Of a stretch of 64,000 bases of DNA, positions 22,601-28,437 are shown piece after piece (position 1 is the stretch's first letter; every line of letters begins with the position of its first letter). The notes beneath the pieces were generated by a model. That model searched no databases, was not told the DNA's origin, and worked only from the letters and a program-made list of their open reading frames with translations. Made by a program: the position numbers and the translations under genes. The DNA is from Alteromonas macleodii (GTDB taxonomy: Bacteria > Pseudomonadota > Gammaproteobacteria > Enterobacterales > Alteromonadaceae): NCBI RefSeq assembly GCF_903772925.1, contig NZ_LR812090.1, positions 2,624,333 through 2,688,332 on the forward strand. The letters are read 5' to 3'.

Positions 22601-23531
22601 ATCGATTCCCCTTAACAAAAGCCTCTGCTTCTGGTGGTGCGAGATAATACTGCTGCTCACTTACGCAAGAGCCTAACCATGCTTTAAGCGCAGCCAATTC
22701 TTGGGGTCTTTCTTTTTTATGGGCCGGTGTTTTAATAAGCTGCTCTACGATTAACCCTTCGTTTTCTTCCACACTTTGCAGTAAAGATTTCGCATAGGCC
22801 AAAGACGTGTTTGGCGCGTCATTCAGCTGTTTGTTAAAAGCCGCTTCAATGTCGTCCTCAGTTAGTATTAATGGGGTCAGCGTACTTTTTATGCTGGCGT
22901 TAAATTCACGCAGTAGGTTTTCTGGTGTGTGCCAGCCAGACTCTGCCAACAGCCTGAAATCGTCCTCGCTTTTACTTATTTTTCGAATGAAATCTTCGGC
23001 AGCCTGAAGATATAAATCGCTAGTATCGTTACCCAAATTTAGAGACATAGCGAAGCCACTGTTGAACGCCAGCTGAGTAATAACGTGCTGACAAAAACCG
23101 TGGATAGTGAAAACCGATGCCTCATCAAGCTCTAGCTGCGCTGCTTTTAATAGGGCTAAACTCTCATCAGGATCGCAGCTATTAAACAAGCTCTGATAAA
23201 CCGGGTCGCAGCTAGCGTCTATTTCGTTGCCGTTGTCTTTGGCTTGCTGCCAAATAAGCAATGCCTCTCTTAGGGTGGCCGCAATCCGCCCCTTAATTTC
23301 TTCGGTAGCGGCTTTGGTGAAGGTCATCACCAATATTTCTTTAACGTTAAGCTTTTTTTCTAACAGCAAGCGTAGGTACAAACGCGTAATGTTAAAGGTT
23401 TTGCCTGTACCTGCGCTCGCTTCAATAAGGTGTCGCCCCTTTAGCGGCATAGCCACCACGTCAAGCAATTGCGCTTCGCTATGGGGTCGCTCGTTCTTGT
23501 AATTTTCAGAGGATACAGAATTCTGGCTCAT
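19674..23531 (-). CDS. recB: RecB, exodeoxyribonuclease V beta subunit
   Basis: The 3'-5' helicase and nuclease subunit of RecBCD. UvrD-type motifs: Walker A SAGTGKTF (about residues 39-46), LIDEFQDTDAKQYAILD, GDPKQAIYRFRGGD, and the TQHGSKGLEYPIVFVPYA motif. The C-terminal nuclease carries GFIDLIFEHDGQFFVADYKSTWLG, with the D-x-K metal-binding core, so RecA loading and Chi-regulated cutting should be intact. 1285 residues (E. coli 1180). ATG overlaps the recC stop by four bases, indicating coupling. Unlike E. coli, no ptrA gene lies between recC and recB. Confidence 0.97.
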   Translation of the reverse strand: MSQNSVSSENYKNERPHSEAQLLDVVAMPLKGRHLIEASAGTGKTFNITRLYLRLLLEKKLNVKEILVMTFTKAATEEIKGRIAATLREALLIWQQAKDNGNEIDASCDPVYQSLFNSCDPDESLALLKAAQLELDEASVFTIHGFCQHVITQLAFNSGFAMSLNLGNDTSDLYLQAAEDFIRKISKSEDDFRLLAESGWHTPENLLREFNASIKSTLTPLILTEDDIEAAFNKQLNDAPNTSLAYAKSLLQSVEENEGLIVEQLIKTPAHKKERPQELAALKAWLGSCVSEQQYYLAPPEAEAFVKGNRYARNSSGVKEILTPIKEFAGALKKAFAEKDKALGKVPVFKLVIEAIAFIKERVEKQKKQLGVIDFDDLIRMLADEVIKPNNILVPELRKKFPVALIDEFQDTDAKQYAILDSVYPNLADADESALLMIGDPKQAIYRFRGGDIFTYLKAGRQADYRWVMNTNWRSVEGMVRAYNRLFYGAPVASGKPTDVFGFGINYNPVEFTPKAAAAKAPLVDLADQNNVVKRSAMNYVSMCLEEKENTNIMRRKMAQWIAQEIYRLLNEAHFKAADGHTTPVKPQDIAILVKDRTEAGAIKNVLQQKGLACVYLSDRSNLFASAEAKDVLRLLNGIWHANDTSKVASSLASPLWGYSANTLIELLYHEDDAQWDAAIDKVLSLREMWLQKGCMSVLLHLMQDSYQPHADSVERALTNYQHLAEVLEKASTTHQRPEQLLDWLNKQIHKPESDEELTLRLESDSQLIRLITQHGSKGLEYPIVFVPYATGYKDASKNGKATSQIFTYYDEEKQDLQMQLGQTPQAIARVQHESEAEDMRLAYVAVTRAAHRCYMGVVPLANNEKSALARALGVSGDSGNNDWPSVLSRVAAEDASHASHIDGDEFEEVYSGFEQEDELPQLSALQFTGTASEEWRLYSFSAMSRLTTVGTSANTTPVEASGQTLPSVPVLQTIRDEEVYAADSLVGGEELLGASNADPSFSTTTTISKSDLRFTLEKGASAGNLLHDILENSDFSAPEWEETGKELVKRFGLEEKRTPLLYEWLEETLQTPLYPKMQLSMSDLPLAQTLREAEFYFPMNDTQWAQLRDVLAHHRQYVADSIGGKTEAAPQLITTKLQGMMHGFIDLIFEHDGQFFVADYKSTWLGDTLDSYLPVALFHNNQHHLYDLQYLIYCLALHRYLKNTLPDYDPDVHFGGVYYLYLRGMHPENERGEGVFYTDIPSSLLMQIDSIFESGGNSQQSDNLKSEGTTQQHSEQQQFSFDDK

Positions 23532-26500
23532 AACTTCTCCTCCTGAGACGCATTATTGACCATGGAAAAAAGTACAAAGGCACACAAGTGCGGGGCATCG
23601 TTCCAGCTTACACCTTGCGGGAATAGCCAGTTGAGGTAAGGATTGCTTGCCATATCCGCACTGTACTGCCCGTTACTTTGCTGCCAATCGGTTAGCGCAC
23701 GCTGTAGTTCAATGGTGTCAAAAAGTGCGGCAGACTGACTAACTATCTGTTTCGCTTTTTCGTTTCTATCACTTGTTGTTTCGCGAGTAGTGTCGCTGTC
23801 TTTCTCAGCAAACGGGCAGACTTCCTCAATTACCTGTTGAAATTGATCGAGAATGGCTTTATCGGTTTCACTTGTAACATCTGTACTATGCAGTAGTGCA
23901 TGCAGGATATGGTTAAACATATCCGGTTTTATGCTTTCAACTACGGGCTTAGTCTCTGAGTTTCTTGTGCCGGGCATAAAGGTGCCAAACAAGCTTAAAT
24001 GCACTGGCGTTGGCGCCGTATAAACAGCTATGTAAAGCTGTTCTATAAACAAGAGTAGCCGCACCGCAGTTTCTTTGTCATAAGAAGGGAAACGCTGCTT
24101 TTTCAATACAGTTTCGCCCTTTTCCCATGAACATGAATAAATATCCAGTGGGTAGTTATTGTAGCGAGTTGCTTCATCACTGCATGAAAATATCAATTGA
24201 GAGATGAAAAAGCTTAACGCGCGGTGGGAGTCTATTTTACCGGCACAAAGCTCTACTAACGCGTCGCTACCAACAAGGGCAGTTGTGGTAAAGGTGATAA
24301 ATTTACCTTGGAACTGCGCCTTTACAGGTTCAGCATCGTGAGGTCCCATCGCCTGACTTAATGCTAACGCCCCTTCTTTCCACATTTCAACTTCATCTCT
24401 GGCAACAGGGTTATTGGGAATATCGCCCCGAAGCGACGCAAAAGCGATTACCTGTTCACCGTATGACATTGAGTCATGCTCTTGTGACAACTTGCGTTCA
24501 GGCGATGAGAAGATGGCATCAAGCACCTGATAGCGCAGCAACGCATTGGTCTCAAATGGCTCGCTGTTTTCCAGTAGCGTAAATGACTGTGATAAGTTTA
24601 CACCTAGCCTTTGTATAGAAAAGTGCTCAAGAGGGTCTTTAAAGGCTCTTGCAATTTGGCTATTTGATAGTCGAAGTTCTTGTGTTGAAAGCGTATTGGA
24701 TTGCTCATCAGGTATCGCTAAATGATTAGAGTCGCTGCTATCGACACCTGTCTTATCAGACTGTGACTTTGTATGCTGTAGCGCATCGGCCAGTCTAAGC
24801 CAACCGGTTTCGTAGCTTGGCAATTGTCCAGCGAATCCCTCTTCACTAAAGGGGTGAAGCGGCGCATGTACTCGGTATCTAGACAAGGCCAGAGCGTAGC
24901 TATTTTCCAGCATGTCCATAAACTCAGCTAGTACCAGACTAGGTTGGCGCTCACTGTTATTGGTAACATCGTTGCCTTGATAGCTTAAGTACAGGCTTTC
25001 CCGCGTTGAAATAATGGCTTCAAGAAATAAATATCTGTCTTCCAAACGCCTTGAACGATCGCCAACCCTTCGGTTCGCACCTGCCATTAAGTCCAGGCCT
25101 AGGGGGCTTGATTTTCTTGGGAACTCACTGTCATTTAGGCCAAGAATACACACTTTTTTAAACGGTATACTTCGCATTGGCAACATTGAACATACCGTGA
25201 CCTGACCGGTCATAAAGTGGTTACCTGCATCTGGTGATGAGAATCGATTTAGCAAAAGGTCGCGTACTTGGCGTAAGGACAATTCATGCTGGTAACCCGC
25301 TTCTTCGCATCGTGCTGCAAGATCGGCTGCAACGTTAGCAATAAGATCCCAGCTTTGCTGCTGGTCTTTTATAGGCATAAAGCACGCATCGCGAAGGTCG
25401 ATTAACGCTTTGGACCACTGTTCGGGTGTTCTTGGAGCGGTTAACTCTTGTGCGAATTCCCCGAGCATTGCCACTATATCAACAAGTTTACCTAGGGTTA
25501 GCGCACTTTGCCCTTCCACATCTGGAATAGTAAGTAGGTCACTCACAACCACTTCGGCGTCTTGCGCCAACATGCCCATTAGCAGCCTACGAATGCCCCA
25601 CCACCAGCTGTACGTTTCATCTAGTTTAACGCCCTCTGATACAGCGGTTTTATGGGTACTATTAAGGCCCCAATGGATATGGGCTTGTTTTAGCCACACC
25701 ACCATTTGCTCTATGTCATCTTGAGATACTGAAAATCGTTTTTGTACAGAATCCAGCTGCAAATAATCCATGATGTCCGATACGCCAAAGCGGCTATCAG
25801 GTAGCTGCAAAAGCGCCATAAACGCCGCGATAAGTGGCTCTGCGTCCATAGGGCTTCTATCTGCAATGGTACAGGGAAGTCTAACCTGCCCGGTGCCAGC
25901 TAAGGTTTTAGTACCAACCCTGTGAAATACGGCATCAACAAATGGCGCATAGTTTTCAATAGCCGGGCACATCACAAGAATATCTGATGGGGTACGCGTT
26001 TTATCTTGAGATAACCAATGAAGCAGATGGTCGTGCAACACTTGCACCTCGCGAAGCGCGGAATGAGTGCACATGATGGTGACGCTATCGTCATTTTGTT
26101 TTAGTTCGCTAGTGAATGGCGCAGGTTGAGCGGCTTGTAAAATATCGTTATGGATATAATCCAGCAGGCCGCGAGTAGGCTCTGTATCACCACTTTCGAC
26201 CACTTCGTCGAATTCTGGCGAATCAAAAGCGCTTATCTCAAACGTGTCCAGTTCGGTAAGAAGATTAAATAGCTCTCGGCCCTGCTTACCTAAGTTGCCA
26301 AGTAATGGGTTGGACTGGTCTTCTTCCATCCATTTTTTAAGTCCTTCCAGGCGTAATAGCTTGGCTTGTTCACTACTACTTTTCGCTTCCCCCCAATAAT
26401 TTACGCTGGGGTTTAGGTGGAATATATGAATATCAATATGCTGTGCGAGGGCGTCAAAAAATGCTATTAGTTGCGGTGCCATGGTGTTAATGGCAAAAAC

Positions 26501-27145
26501 AATAACGCGCTTGGGTAAATGACCGACGGGATCATTTGGTATGTCACCTGCCTCTAACGCCTCTAGGGTCATTTGATGCAAACGGGCAGGATGCAACGGC
26601 TCTTCTTTGGCAAGAATACGCCAAATTTCGCTTTGCCATAATTCCATATCATCGAATACAGCCCGTTCATTAGCTTCCCACTTAAACAGCCAGTCGGGAC
26701 GGTATAAGAGATATTGTTCGTACACGTCAGCTAACGCAGTAGCAAGTTGAAGACGCTGAAGGCCCTGCTCCTGCTCGCTGCCGGCGTTTTTCCAATATCT
26801 ATTTACTTGCTCAAAAGCTTCACCGTTCATCAGTGAGTCATCTTGAAGAATATTGTCAATGCGCCAAGTCAGTACTTCACGACGATAAGGAGATTGCTTA
26901 GGTACTTTATCCTGCCCTAATACAGAGCGCGCTGTATTCCACATAAAGCGTACAGGCAGCGGGTAATCAATGTTCATCGCCACGCCGTGTTCAGTGGCTA
27001 ATTGCATACTAACCCAATGTTGCATACCTGGGCTTTCAACCAGAATGGTTTCTGGCGTGAATACCCCCAAGGGTTGCTGACGTAAAAGCGTGGTAAGAAG
27101 AAAACTTAAGTGTTCTAATTTATTAGAGGGGTATAACGCAAGCAA
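23528..27145 (-). CDS. recC: RecC, exodeoxyribonuclease V gamma subunit
   Basis: Inactivated helicase-like subunit that recognises Chi and splits the strands for RecB and RecD. It starts with TTG at 27145 (MLALYPSNKLEHLSFLL) with AAAGGA nine bases upstream, matching the usual short hydrophobic RecC start. Family segments include ESPGMQHWVSMQLA, VMCPAIENYAPFVDAVF, VTVCSMLPMRSIPFKKVCILGLNDSEFPR and RLEDRYLFLEAIISTRESLYLSYQGND. 1205 residues (E. coli 1122). First gene of the recCBD operon. Its leader lies downstream of the small RNA candidate and its terminator. Confidence 0.97.
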   Translation of the reverse strand: MLALYPSNKLEHLSFLLTTLLRQQPLGVFTPETILVESPGMQHWVSMQLATEHGVAMNIDYPLPVRFMWNTARSVLGQDKVPKQSPYRREVLTWRIDNILQDDSLMNGEAFEQVNRYWKNAGSEQEQGLQRLQLATALADVYEQYLLYRPDWLFKWEANERAVFDDMELWQSEIWRILAKEEPLHPARLHQMTLEALEAGDIPNDPVGHLPKRVIVFAINTMAPQLIAFFDALAQHIDIHIFHLNPSVNYWGEAKSSSEQAKLLRLEGLKKWMEEDQSNPLLGNLGKQGRELFNLLTELDTFEISAFDSPEFDEVVESGDTEPTRGLLDYIHNDILQAAQPAPFTSELKQNDDSVTIMCTHSALREVQVLHDHLLHWLSQDKTRTPSDILVMCPAIENYAPFVDAVFHRVGTKTLAGTGQVRLPCTIADRSPMDAEPLIAAFMALLQLPDSRFGVSDIMDYLQLDSVQKRFSVSQDDIEQMVVWLKQAHIHWGLNSTHKTAVSEGVKLDETYSWWWGIRRLLMGMLAQDAEVVVSDLLTIPDVEGQSALTLGKLVDIVAMLGEFAQELTAPRTPEQWSKALIDLRDACFMPIKDQQQSWDLIANVAADLAARCEEAGYQHELSLRQVRDLLLNRFSSPDAGNHFMTGQVTVCSMLPMRSIPFKKVCILGLNDSEFPRKSSPLGLDLMAGANRRVGDRSRRLEDRYLFLEAIISTRESLYLSYQGNDVTNNSERQPSLVLAEFMDMLENSYALALSRYRVHAPLHPFSEEGFAGQLPSYETGWLRLADALQHTKSQSDKTGVDSSDSNHLAIPDEQSNTLSTQELRLSNSQIARAFKDPLEHFSIQRLGVNLSQSFTLLENSEPFETNALLRYQVLDAIFSSPERKLSQEHDSMSYGEQVIAFASLRGDIPNNPVARDEVEMWKEGALALSQAMGPHDAEPVKAQFQGKFITFTTTALVGSDALVELCAGKIDSHRALSFFISQLIFSCSDEATRYNNYPLDIYSCSWEKGETVLKKQRFPSYDKETAVRLLLFIEQLYIAVYTAPTPVHLSLFGTFMPGTRNSETKPVVESIKPDMFNHILHALLHSTDVTSETDKAILDQFQQVIEEVCPFAEKDSDTTRETTSDRNEKAKQIVSQSAALFDTIELQRALTDWQQSNGQYSADMASNPYLNWLFPQGVSWNDAPHLCAFVLFSMVNNASQEEKL

Positions 27146-27408
27146 TCGAAAAATCCTTTGTAAAACGTGCTATTAGGTTCTGTATAAAGACTATGCACGC
27201 ATCGTCGAACTTATCAATTAAGTGTATCGCATTAGGCCAAGTAGTTAAGTTATTTCTCAAAAAAATAGATAAGCAAATGTCTTGTGAAGATAAAAATAAG
27301 GACTAAGGCAATGATATAAATAAGCGTATCCAATTAACTCAGTGACAAGTAATAGGAGAAAGCTAGGTATCGGAGGTACGAGAAAAGTAATGGTATCGTT
27401 TTTTAGAC

Positions 27409-27454
27409 AAAAAAAACCCATACAGACCTCAGGACACGAAAAATCTGTATGGGT
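27409..27454 (-). terminator. Intrinsic terminator of the minus-strand RNA candidate
   Basis: On the minus strand, ACCCATACAGA pairs with TCTGTATGGGT (plus 27417-27426 and 27443-27453), followed by a run of eight T. No annotated minus-strand gene lies upstream within 600 bases, so it implies an unannotated transcript. Confidence 0.85.
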
Positions 27455-27540
27455 AAGGTTTACGGTCTACTCAGTAACAACGTGAATAAGCGTTGCCTGG
27501 CACTCATTCACGTTAGCGCTACTGGGCAGCACTGTTAACT
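27413..27540 (-). ncRNA. Candidate small structured RNA with intrinsic terminator
   Basis: Read on the minus strand: a hairpin formed by CAGTAGC / GTTACTG and AACGTGAATGAG / CTTATTCACGTT (plus coordinates 27472-27524), with a TGCC-A-GGCA apex and G-U wobbles, then a single-stranded linker, then the terminator at 27416-27453. No ORF longer than a few codons. I do not recognise it as 6S, Spot 42, GcvB, GlmZ or RyhB. The 5' end is estimated; promoter elements are weak. It could instead be an attenuator leader of recC, whose start lies 270 bases further on. Confidence 0.55.
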
Positions 27541-27783
27541 CTTTAGGTTTTGCAGGTAGAATGCCAACTTTTTAAACTTTAAAATTCAAACACTTAGAGC
27601 AATTTAGAAAATATGACTAATCAGTCATGGTTTTACTCTGGTGCAAGTGCACCACAAGCAAGCACTTAGTAAAAAAGATGCTTCACTATTATTGGCTAAA
27701 ATTTAGCAGTTTCTCCTTCATCGTCATTCAAGTACAATTTCGCCTTTAAAAGATGCATTACACATTCACGGTCAGGAGCAACA

Positions 27784-28437
27784 ATGTTAACCGCCCAACA
27801 ACTCGCCACCATGCTTTCTCTTCAAGATAAAATGAACGCCAAAGTAAACCCAGACTGGCTAAATGCGGGATATGGATACTTGCGCGCAGCTATGGTTGAG
27901 TCTGTTGAAGCCATTGAACATCACGGCTGGAAATGGTGGAAAGCACAGAAAAAAGACTTGCCTCAGCTTCAAATGGAGCTCGTGGACATTTGGCATTTTG
28001 CGCTGAGCGCATGCATTATTGAATATAAAGGTGATATTAGTGAGTCAGCCAAAAGTATTGCGGCTGAGCTGGCAAGTGGCAATACTCAAGTGACCTTCGA
28101 CGGTAAAGACTACGACGCATCTAATCAGTCCCTTCTTGATAATTTAGAATTAATGACAGGCCTATGTGCCGCTAAGCGCTTCAGCGTTCCACTATTTATG
28201 TTTATCGTGAGCCAATGCGAAATGTCGGCTGACGAGTTGTATCGTCAGTATGTTGGCAAAAATGTTCTCAATTTCTTCCGTCAAGATAACGGTTACAAAG
28301 AAGGAACATACGTCAAAGTATGGGAAGGTCGCGAAGACAACGAGCACTTAGTTGAAGTCATGGACGCACTTGATTTGACTAAACCCGAGTTTAGCGATTT
28401 AGTGTACGAAGGCTTGCGCGCACGCTACCCTTCTTAA
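27784..28437 (+). CDS. Dimeric dUTP diphosphatase (dUTPase_2, all-alpha NTP pyrophosphatase)
   Basis: Hydrolyses dUTP to dUMP and pyrophosphate, keeping uracil out of DNA. It belongs to the all-alpha dimeric (MazG/Leishmania-type) group, not the trimeric Dut. Opening QQLATMLSLQDKMNAKVNPDWLNAGYGYLRAAMVESVEAIEHHGWKWWK gives the ExxxE metal site, and LQMELVDIWHFALSACI gives the second ExxD. 217 residues, normal. Ribosome site AGGAGC at 7 bases. Monocistronic, ending at a shared terminator. Confidence 0.92.
   Translation: MLTAQQLATMLSLQDKMNAKVNPDWLNAGYGYLRAAMVESVEAIEHHGWKWWKAQKKDLPQLQMELVDIWHFALSACIIEYKGDISESAKSIAAELASGNTQVTFDGKDYDASNQSLLDNLELMTGLCAAKRFSVPLFMFIVSQCEMSADELYRQYVGKNVLNFFRQDNGYKEGTYVKVWEGREDNEHLVEVMDALDLTKPEFSDLVYEGLRARYPS

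Follow-up and report, generated by a model that had tools for sequence, protein, structure and literature searches.

Qrr, GlmY/GlmZ and CrcZ are small RNAs driven by sigma54, the type of promoter also predicted at the locus described here, and rnTrpL is a leader RNA that acts in trans as well. In Pseudomonas aeruginosa, the available part of one report describes NrsZ as an RpoN-dependent RNA located downstream of ntrBC and acting on rhamnolipid synthesis and motility (PMC9731577). The target of ANTAR-domain proteins is described, in the part of the source available, as two hairpins with hexanucleotide loops carrying an A at position 1 and a G at position 4, the second hairpin overlapping a terminator (PMC3369931). 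A 2014 RNA-seq study lists, in its accessible part, 16 noncoding transcripts including AltRNa2 (309 nt) (PMC4223743), and 127 chromosomal small RNAs are given for Alteromonas strain Te101 in the available section of another source, among which the RNA presented below may already figure (PMC5864184). Literature searches on Alteromonas small RNAs, NtrC-dependent small RNAs and nas leaders gave no description of it in the titles and abstract openings of the matches listed, which is not proof of absence.

The RNA lies in a 64,000-nucleotide stretch of Alteromonas macleodii DNA, called the window. It is structured, stands alone and is about 130 nt in length, encoded on the minus strand at 27409-27540 in the gap between a dUTPase gene and recC. 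In our preferred reading, held with moderate confidence from sequence comparison, it would be an NtrC-induced, trans-acting small RNA that represses glnA and shares its seed hairpin with nas attenuators. The features of the locus are as follows.

27409..27540, minus strand: small RNA gene, with the predicted +1 at 27540 and the 3' end in the T-run 27416-27409
27467..27529, minus strand: long imperfect hairpin, 24 pairs, two covarying helices
27493..27500, minus strand: apical loop CCAGGCAA, closed by a G-C pair (27501, 27492)
27409..27454, minus strand: intrinsic terminator, 11-pair stem and eight T
27431..27439, minus strand: proposed seed UCGUGUCCU, part of the terminator loop (17 nt) and complement of AGGACACGA at the glnA ribosome-binding site
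27552..27566, minus strand: sigma54-type -24/-12 promoter TGGCATTCTACCTGC, a motif match
27584..27596, minus strand: IHF-like site, lying between enhancer and promoter and, by eye, off the consensus at one position here
27639..27664, minus strand: NtrC-like enhancer TGCTTGCTTGTGGTGCA, centred at -116, with an additional half site TGCACCA after it
23528..27145, minus strand: recC (PF04257, TIGR01450), neighbour on the downstream side, probably not under control of the RNA
27784..28437, plus strand: dUTPase_2 gene (PF08761), divergent upstream neighbour

Structure and distribution of the RNA

The terminator proposed at 27409-27454 by the sequence-only reading was confirmed. Its stem pairs 27454-27444 with 27426-27416 and encloses a 17-nt loop (27443-27427); the first of the eight T (27416-27409) is part of the last stem pair, at 27416. 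A simple terminator scan of the window did not list it because that scan permits loops of 3–8 nt only. The long imperfect hairpin of the same reading was also recovered, with a span of about 27467-27529. The minus-strand RNA folded at -57.6 kcal/mol (z -6.7, none of 200 shuffles as low) and the plus strand at -47.0 kcal/mol (z -5.5). The strand asymmetry that had been drawn from G-U pairs is therefore real but modest. What settles the strand is the U-run together with the pair counts and a sigma54-type promoter on the minus strand, in agreement with the transcription first proposed, and the divergent dUTPase_2 gene fits the remark that no annotated minus-strand gene lies upstream.

The main pair counts were made on 34 aligned sequences, from which one locus with a decayed body (L031) was omitted and to which two further loci (L377 and L271) were added. 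The three helices comprise 35 pairs; 94.2% of the pair cells were standard compared with 79.8% after shuffling, 29 of the 35 pairs showed two-sided changes (16.6 when shuffled), and the covariation score was 0.492 (0.214 when shuffled). None of 500 shuffles reached any of these measures, with the caveat that related sequences can beat shuffles without structure; the controls in which partner columns were slid by 1–3 positions preserve relatedness, and there the pairing fell to 29–43%, with 13–15 two-sided pairs. The alignment that included L031 and left out L377 and L271 gave the same outcome (94.4%, 30 pairs). In the long hairpin, 20 of 24 pairs had changes on both sides, with 92.9% and 91.8% of the cells paired, and in the terminator stem this was so for 9 of 11. 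The covariation among relatives that the first reading had named as a check is thus present. The segment GCCAGGCAAC, which is the apical loop CCAGGCAA with its closing G-C pair, and the core CGUGUCCUGA of the terminator loop were invariant in all 34 sequences; UUUUCGUGUCCUGA in the terminator loop was invariant in 33/33 recC-linked loci of the genus. In L023, L033 and L377 the seed loop was constant and the stem had been rebuilt by paired changes. L031, outside the main alignment, was without GCCAGGCAAC. That this is a real structured RNA with signals of its own appears practically certain.

Segment GCCAGGCAAC is nearly self-complementary (UGCC-A-GGCA, 27492-27501 on the minus strand of the window), and this loop could be a dimer contact, a protein site or a second seed. 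A possible kissing pair between loop 1 (CAGG) and loop 2 (CCUG) was spotted by eye. The complement of the second loop (GTTGCCTGG/TTGCCTGGC), searched for around glnA, gave three matches in 30 loci, none of them at the start.

In all counts the genus is Alteromonas in a broad sense, including genomes labelled Salinimonas and Aestuariibacter. A 171-bp stretch was matched in 33 of 60 relatives, all of them in the genus (33/36 there, own genome included), and in none of the 24 genomes of other families. The order dUTPase, RNA, recC was kept in 33/33 recC-linked loci, the distance from terminator to recC ranging from 63 to 425 nt. One genome (G026), whose locus was opened since the 171-bp search gave no match, carries the RNA at L377, its terminator stem rebuilt. 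The loci of G012 and G025, opened likewise, held no RNA, the dUTPase-recC gap of G025 being short. The RNA is therefore present in 34 of the 36 genus genomes, in one of them (G015, L031) with promoter and terminator loop kept and the body decayed. A copy at recC was also found in genus g120 (G514, L271), where the dUTPase looks, by eye, to be of another (trimeric) type, so the linkage of RNA and recC outlasts a change of the other neighbour. A covariance model run with strict filters on 394 genomes of the order matched nine genomes in 2 of 114 genera. A search of plasmids gave no match.

No Rfam 15 covariance model matched the window at gathering score, in keeping with the initial impression that the RNA belongs to no known family. 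At permissive settings, 27100-27800 yielded four matches, none of which came near its gathering score (the best, bglG-cis-reg, with 23 of 80 bits), and a scan of six related loci gave two, both below gathering. Frames starting with ATG, GTG or TTG inside the RNA have 4–45 codons; a coding role was rejected because these short frames are inconsistent in length and frame among relatives.

Promoter, enhancer and glnA as candidate target

The sigma54 promoter is a feature that the sequence-only reading missed. The motif TGGCAY-N6-TG was found upstream in 33/33 loci and in its full form, with TGC, in 27/33, against shuffled means of 0.45 and 0.08, respectively; we take TGGCAY-N6-TG(C) to be the -24/-12 signature of sigma54. 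The spacing from promoter to terminator loop varied by 3 nt only, and the +1 near 27540 was placed by position, from the -12 C of the element at 27552. The sole sigma70 match upstream on the minus strand, at 28082-28054, lies within the dUTPase gene and was rejected. An NtrC-like site was present between -150 and -80 in 27/33 loci (shuffles: mean 3.7, maximum 10), mostly at -116 to -119 and adjoining the half site TGCACCA, under an assumed NtrC consensus of TGCACCA-N3-TGGTGCA. An exact IHF-like YAANNNNTTGATW occurred within 60 nt before the promoter in 11/33 loci (shuffled mean 0.24). These motifs predict that the RNA is very probably under sigma54/NtrC control and would be expected when NtrC is phosphorylated, and they point to an NtrC/sigma54 small RNA, not to a leader of recC. 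Upstream of glnA, NtrC-like sites of the same kind exist in most genus genomes, often paired 21 bp apart, together with a sigma54-type promoter recognised by eye.

The RNA has what a base-pairing small RNA is expected to have, an intrinsic terminator with a U-run and a conserved unpaired seed, and the reverse complement of the terminator loop resembles a ribosome-binding site. The glnA gene of the window's genome carries GGAGGACACGATG, which forms nine pairs with the loop. A full-length glnA was found in 35 of the 36 genus genomes (none in G005), and the ribosome-binding site read AGGACAC / GGAGGACAC in 34 of these 35; the nine-base AGGACACGA was present in 32 genomes, and G026 and G009 had AGGACACA. 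Only G025 deviates (GGAGGAAACG); it and G012 are the two genomes that lack the RNA. The glnA leader was 94–100% conserved at positions -10 to -1 compared with about 50% for the dUTPase spacer, used as the one control gene.

GGACAC was found at glnA in none of 22 outgroup-order loci. Elsewhere in the family, 21 more full-length glnA loci were compared: GGAGGACAC was present in g37 (2/2), g38 (1/1) and g35 (2/2), and in 0/16 of the others. Genera g37 and g38 have the terminator loop, the g38 genome tested (G321, GGAGGACACA) being itself without a pattern match. In g35 (L242, L245) the glnA ribosome-binding site is GGAGGACACATG and the loop pattern gave no match; these genomes either carry a variant of the RNA or have a site that is independent of it. 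Five of the 16 others, from g29 and g33, where no loop was found, carry GGAGGACA or GGAGAACA followed by other bases (variants GGAGGACAT, with -AA or -AG, and GGAGAACA in one g33 locus), so GGAGGACA is partly ancestral.

The duplex between the loop and the glnA of the same genome averaged -20.0 kcal/mol (range -21.0 to -13.3, 32 genomes); the loop of the window gave -6.4 to -15.3 kcal/mol with the 22 outgroup glnA loci. With 200 target shuffles in each of seven genomes (shuffle means of -8.7 to -11.7), the observed duplex was below all shuffles in G000 (the genome of the window), G016, G014 and G015. It was not in G030 (best shuffle -21.3 vs. -21.0) or G011 (-19.5 vs. -18.5), and in G009, which has the glnA variant AGGACACA, the duplex of -13.3 was unexceptional (best shuffle -19.6). 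When the complete RNA was folded together with the glnA leader, the gain was only about 2 kcal/mol (-79.1 vs. -76.9) because the terminator stem must open partly.

The site at glnA is thus conserved and complementary to the loop, yet partly ancestral and without genome-wide enrichment. It is possible, though rather unlikely, that the RNA is a genuine NtrC/sigma54 small RNA acting chiefly on other mRNAs, and that its match at glnA is a coincidence between a UCCU-bearing seed and a constrained Shine-Dalgarno region. Such a seed fits many ribosome-binding sites: AGGACAC-N(0-8)-ATG occurred 30 times in the genome of the window, compared with 39 for the reversed pattern, which means no enrichment near ATG, and 17 of the 30 matches open a reading frame of at least 50 aa. 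The partly ancestral GGAGGACA also speaks for this possibility, as does G012, which lost the RNA and kept the glnA site. On the other side, the only mutated glnA site sits in a genome without the RNA, the glnA spacer is fixed and not only the Shine-Dalgarno sequence, and glnA was the only gene common to three divergent genomes among the matches listed (all 30 of G000, 30 of 34 of G030 and 30 of 37 of G016). Among those same matches, one other gene (accA, named by eye) was common to G016 and G030 only.

The full-length loop complement TCAGGACACGAAAA, searched for in the same genome with up to two mismatches, gave 19 matches including the RNA gene itself, compared with 47 for the reversed control. 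The other 18 were rejected, none being judged a convincing start site, and the one with a single mismatch (L036) has no reading frame of 60 aa starting nearby.

Repression of glnA by pairing at its start site is a prediction from sequence that we consider reasonably likely. The sequences show the RNA with its covarying structure, promoter- and enhancer-like sites, an invariant seed and its complementarity to the target; expression under nitrogen stress, direct pairing, repression and any role of Hfq are what we infer. In the model proposed here, phosphorylated NtrC bound near -117/-97 would activate the sigma54 RNA polymerase at 27566-27552 when nitrogen is scarce, and an RNA of about 130 nt would be made, ending at its own terminator. 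The terminator loop UUUUUCGUGUCCUGAGG would pair with the Shine-Dalgarno and start region AGGACACGAUG of glnA and would lower the translation of glutamine synthetase. Why NtrC should induce both a gene and its repressor calls for an explanation. Since NtrC also drives glnA, the two arms would form an incoherent feed-forward loop capping glutamine synthetase, which may limit the enzyme while NtrC is active or speed its shut-off on the return of ammonium. If this is true, an RNA layer is added to the control of glutamine synthetase in widespread marine bacteria, and the prediction is a simple one: a single 9-bp pairing and one gene, in cultivable Alteromonas.

Probable kinship with nitrate-operon leaders

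One genus genome (G005, an assembly with 7% contamination) had two matches to the RNA. The second, L034, lies away from recC and consists of a sigma54-type promoter and an RNA with a homologous terminator directly before a NarK-like MFS gene. In g37, the model found the hairpin in G301 (L227), where the end of an ANTAR-domain gene and a gene of the NMT1_2 (NasS-like) family come before it and an nrtA-like gene comes after; in G341, L226 lies ahead of an nrtA-like gene, and another match, L228, is without such a loop. Nas-type leaders lacking the loop therefore exist (L228, L055).

The pattern GTGTCCTG-N(8-13)-GGGYTTTT was found in 31 of 246 family genomes, in 8/52 genera; it misses variants such as that of G031, which has the RNA. 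We inspected 21 loci outside Alteromonas, leaving out the second matches of G028 and G583, and G431. Leaders of nrtA-like genes (L257, L258, L260, L261, L272, L274) and of narK (L275-L281) were seen, together with the recC-linked L271, and operon-less leader-like RNAs were present in g37 (L254, L255, L256, L259). L273 has no nitrate gene adjoining, and L282 looks like chance. Protein-family matches fit the names of L260 (NMT1_2, as expected of an nrtA-like gene), L279 (NarK) and L253 (MoaA); the other names were given by eye. The presence of the loop in these leaders is by construction, since it was the search key. The ANTAR P2-type hexaloop GGC-ANNGNN was found just 5' of the terminator in 15 of 16 leaders with a same-strand downstream ORF, a set that includes L034 and L227, with L273 as the exception. 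The operon-less RNAs of g37 had it in 0/4; G4 was lost in 4/4, and three of the four, which are near-identical, also lose the P2 stem. The terminator of the RNA is, in our estimation, very likely to be homologous with that of the nas leaders of related genera.

Several side observations concern these loci. The operon-less RNAs of g37 (near position 1500) have a sigma54-type promoter and the terminator loop, no same-strand ORF of 90 aa downstream, and a convergent amidohydrolase-like ORF (named by eye) about 37 nt away. L253 (G432, g124) is a sigma54-type leader with an ANTAR-type hexaloop and the terminator loop of the small RNA, located before moaA; molybdenum cofactor synthesis is perhaps under nitrate antitermination there. 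At L034:1460-1680, the leader loop also fits the ribosome-binding site of its own narK (AAAGGACACAATG, -15.1 kcal/mol).

As a general target narK was rejected: a strong NarK match was found only in G005, G023 and G013 of the 36 genus genomes and cannot explain the conservation. Two g38 narK leader loops fitted their own ribosome-binding sites poorly (-5.7 and -7.7 kcal/mol). Leader loops of g37 paired with their own glnA (two tested), and four g38 loops with the glnA of another g38 genome, gave -12.7 to -13.8 kcal/mol; this is weak, inside the outgroup range, and makes it less likely that those cis leaders act in trans.

A tentative extension of the model is that the terminator loop of the nas attenuators is itself the seed of a small RNA in part of the family. 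Leaders stopped early, under nitrogen starvation and without nitrate, would then be released as regulators of glnA and would report the lack of nitrate both in cis and in trans. Such a leader could have survived as a pure small RNA after loss of the operon or of ANTAR control, at least twice: once as the recC-linked RNA and once as the g37 leader-like RNAs, which lost G4 of the hexaloop and kept loop and promoter. If true, the link with nas terminators shows an attenuator becoming a free regulator, with intermediates visible in living genomes.

The same kinship could suggest that the RNA is a decoy that titrates the ANTAR proteins NasR/NasT and thereby tunes nitrate assimilation, for which the small RNAs that sequester EutV are a precedent. 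The terminator homology and the GGCAA string shared with ANTAR-type nas leaders are compatible with this, and the genome of the window encodes a NIT-ANTAR (NasR-type) protein (L381:7656-9062, minus strand) near nirB- and nasA-like genes named by eye; positions 9050-10080 of L381, read by eye, held no copy of the small-RNA-type loop. We find a decoy very unlikely, as the consensus fold lacks a hairpin whose hexaloop carries A1 and G4; it has the 8-nt loop CCAGGCAA, and no hexaloop hairpin at the terminator. A search for ANTAR domains was positive in 26 of the 36 genus genomes, and 8 of the 10 genomes without one retain the RNA or, in G015, the terminator loop (G004, G005, G007, G009, G015, G022, G026, G030; the other two are G012 and G025), so binding of NasR/NasT is an unlikely reason for its retention.

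Relation to recC and comparison with known systems

The sequence-only reading had left the choice between a free small RNA and a leader or attenuator of recCBD. The first is strongly supported by the covarying structure, the RNA's own sigma54-type promoter, NtrC-like site and terminator, and its presence in 34/36 genus genomes; the second found no support. The RNA does share its strand and a conserved order with recC in the 33/33 loci as well as in L377 and L271, but a gap to recC as variable as 63 to 425 nt, a counted structure of three separate helices with no antiterminator helix among them, and terminator relatives located at nitrate genes or before no same-strand gene make a cis role highly improbable. 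Control by sigma54/NtrC is not known to be linked to recBCD. A DNA element or chance inverted repeat, which would agree with both strands folding better than shuffles, can be dismissed with near certainty given the compensatory changes including G-U states, the invariant loop, the sigma54-type promoter and the U-run, all on one strand.

As a predicted NtrC-induced regulator of glnA, the RNA is set apart from Qrr, GlmY/GlmZ and CrcZ by the absence of any Rfam 15 match at gathering score in the window. Going by the available part of the source, NrsZ resembles it in being a sigma54-dependent, nitrogen-controlled trans small RNA (PMC9731577); NrsZ lies at another locus, whereas the RNA here is beside recC, and has another reported role, the two being set apart by description and not by sequence. 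GlnZ, a small RNA from the glnA 3'UTR of Enterobacteriaceae, is in the accessible text likewise an RNA branch of the NtrC regulon connected with glnA, but it is cut from the glnA mRNA and represses sucA, whereas the RNA here has its own promoter and a predicted action on glnA (PMC9731577). The archaeal sRNA154 of Methanosarcina mazei, likened by description only, is nitrogen-related and acts on glutamine synthetase mRNAs according to the part of the report available (PMC9170634). The ANTAR-controlled nas leaders (NasR/NasT attenuators) resemble it in having a homologous terminator hairpin and loop and a sigma54-type promoter; the recC-linked RNA differs from them in having neither the P2-type hexaloop nor a downstream operon. 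Rli51, Vsr217 and RZ are, as far as the available parts of the sources describe them, 5'UTR or terminated leader RNAs reused as small RNAs, and none of them appears there as an ANTAR or nas leader, whereas in the present case operon-less versions of the leader also exist.
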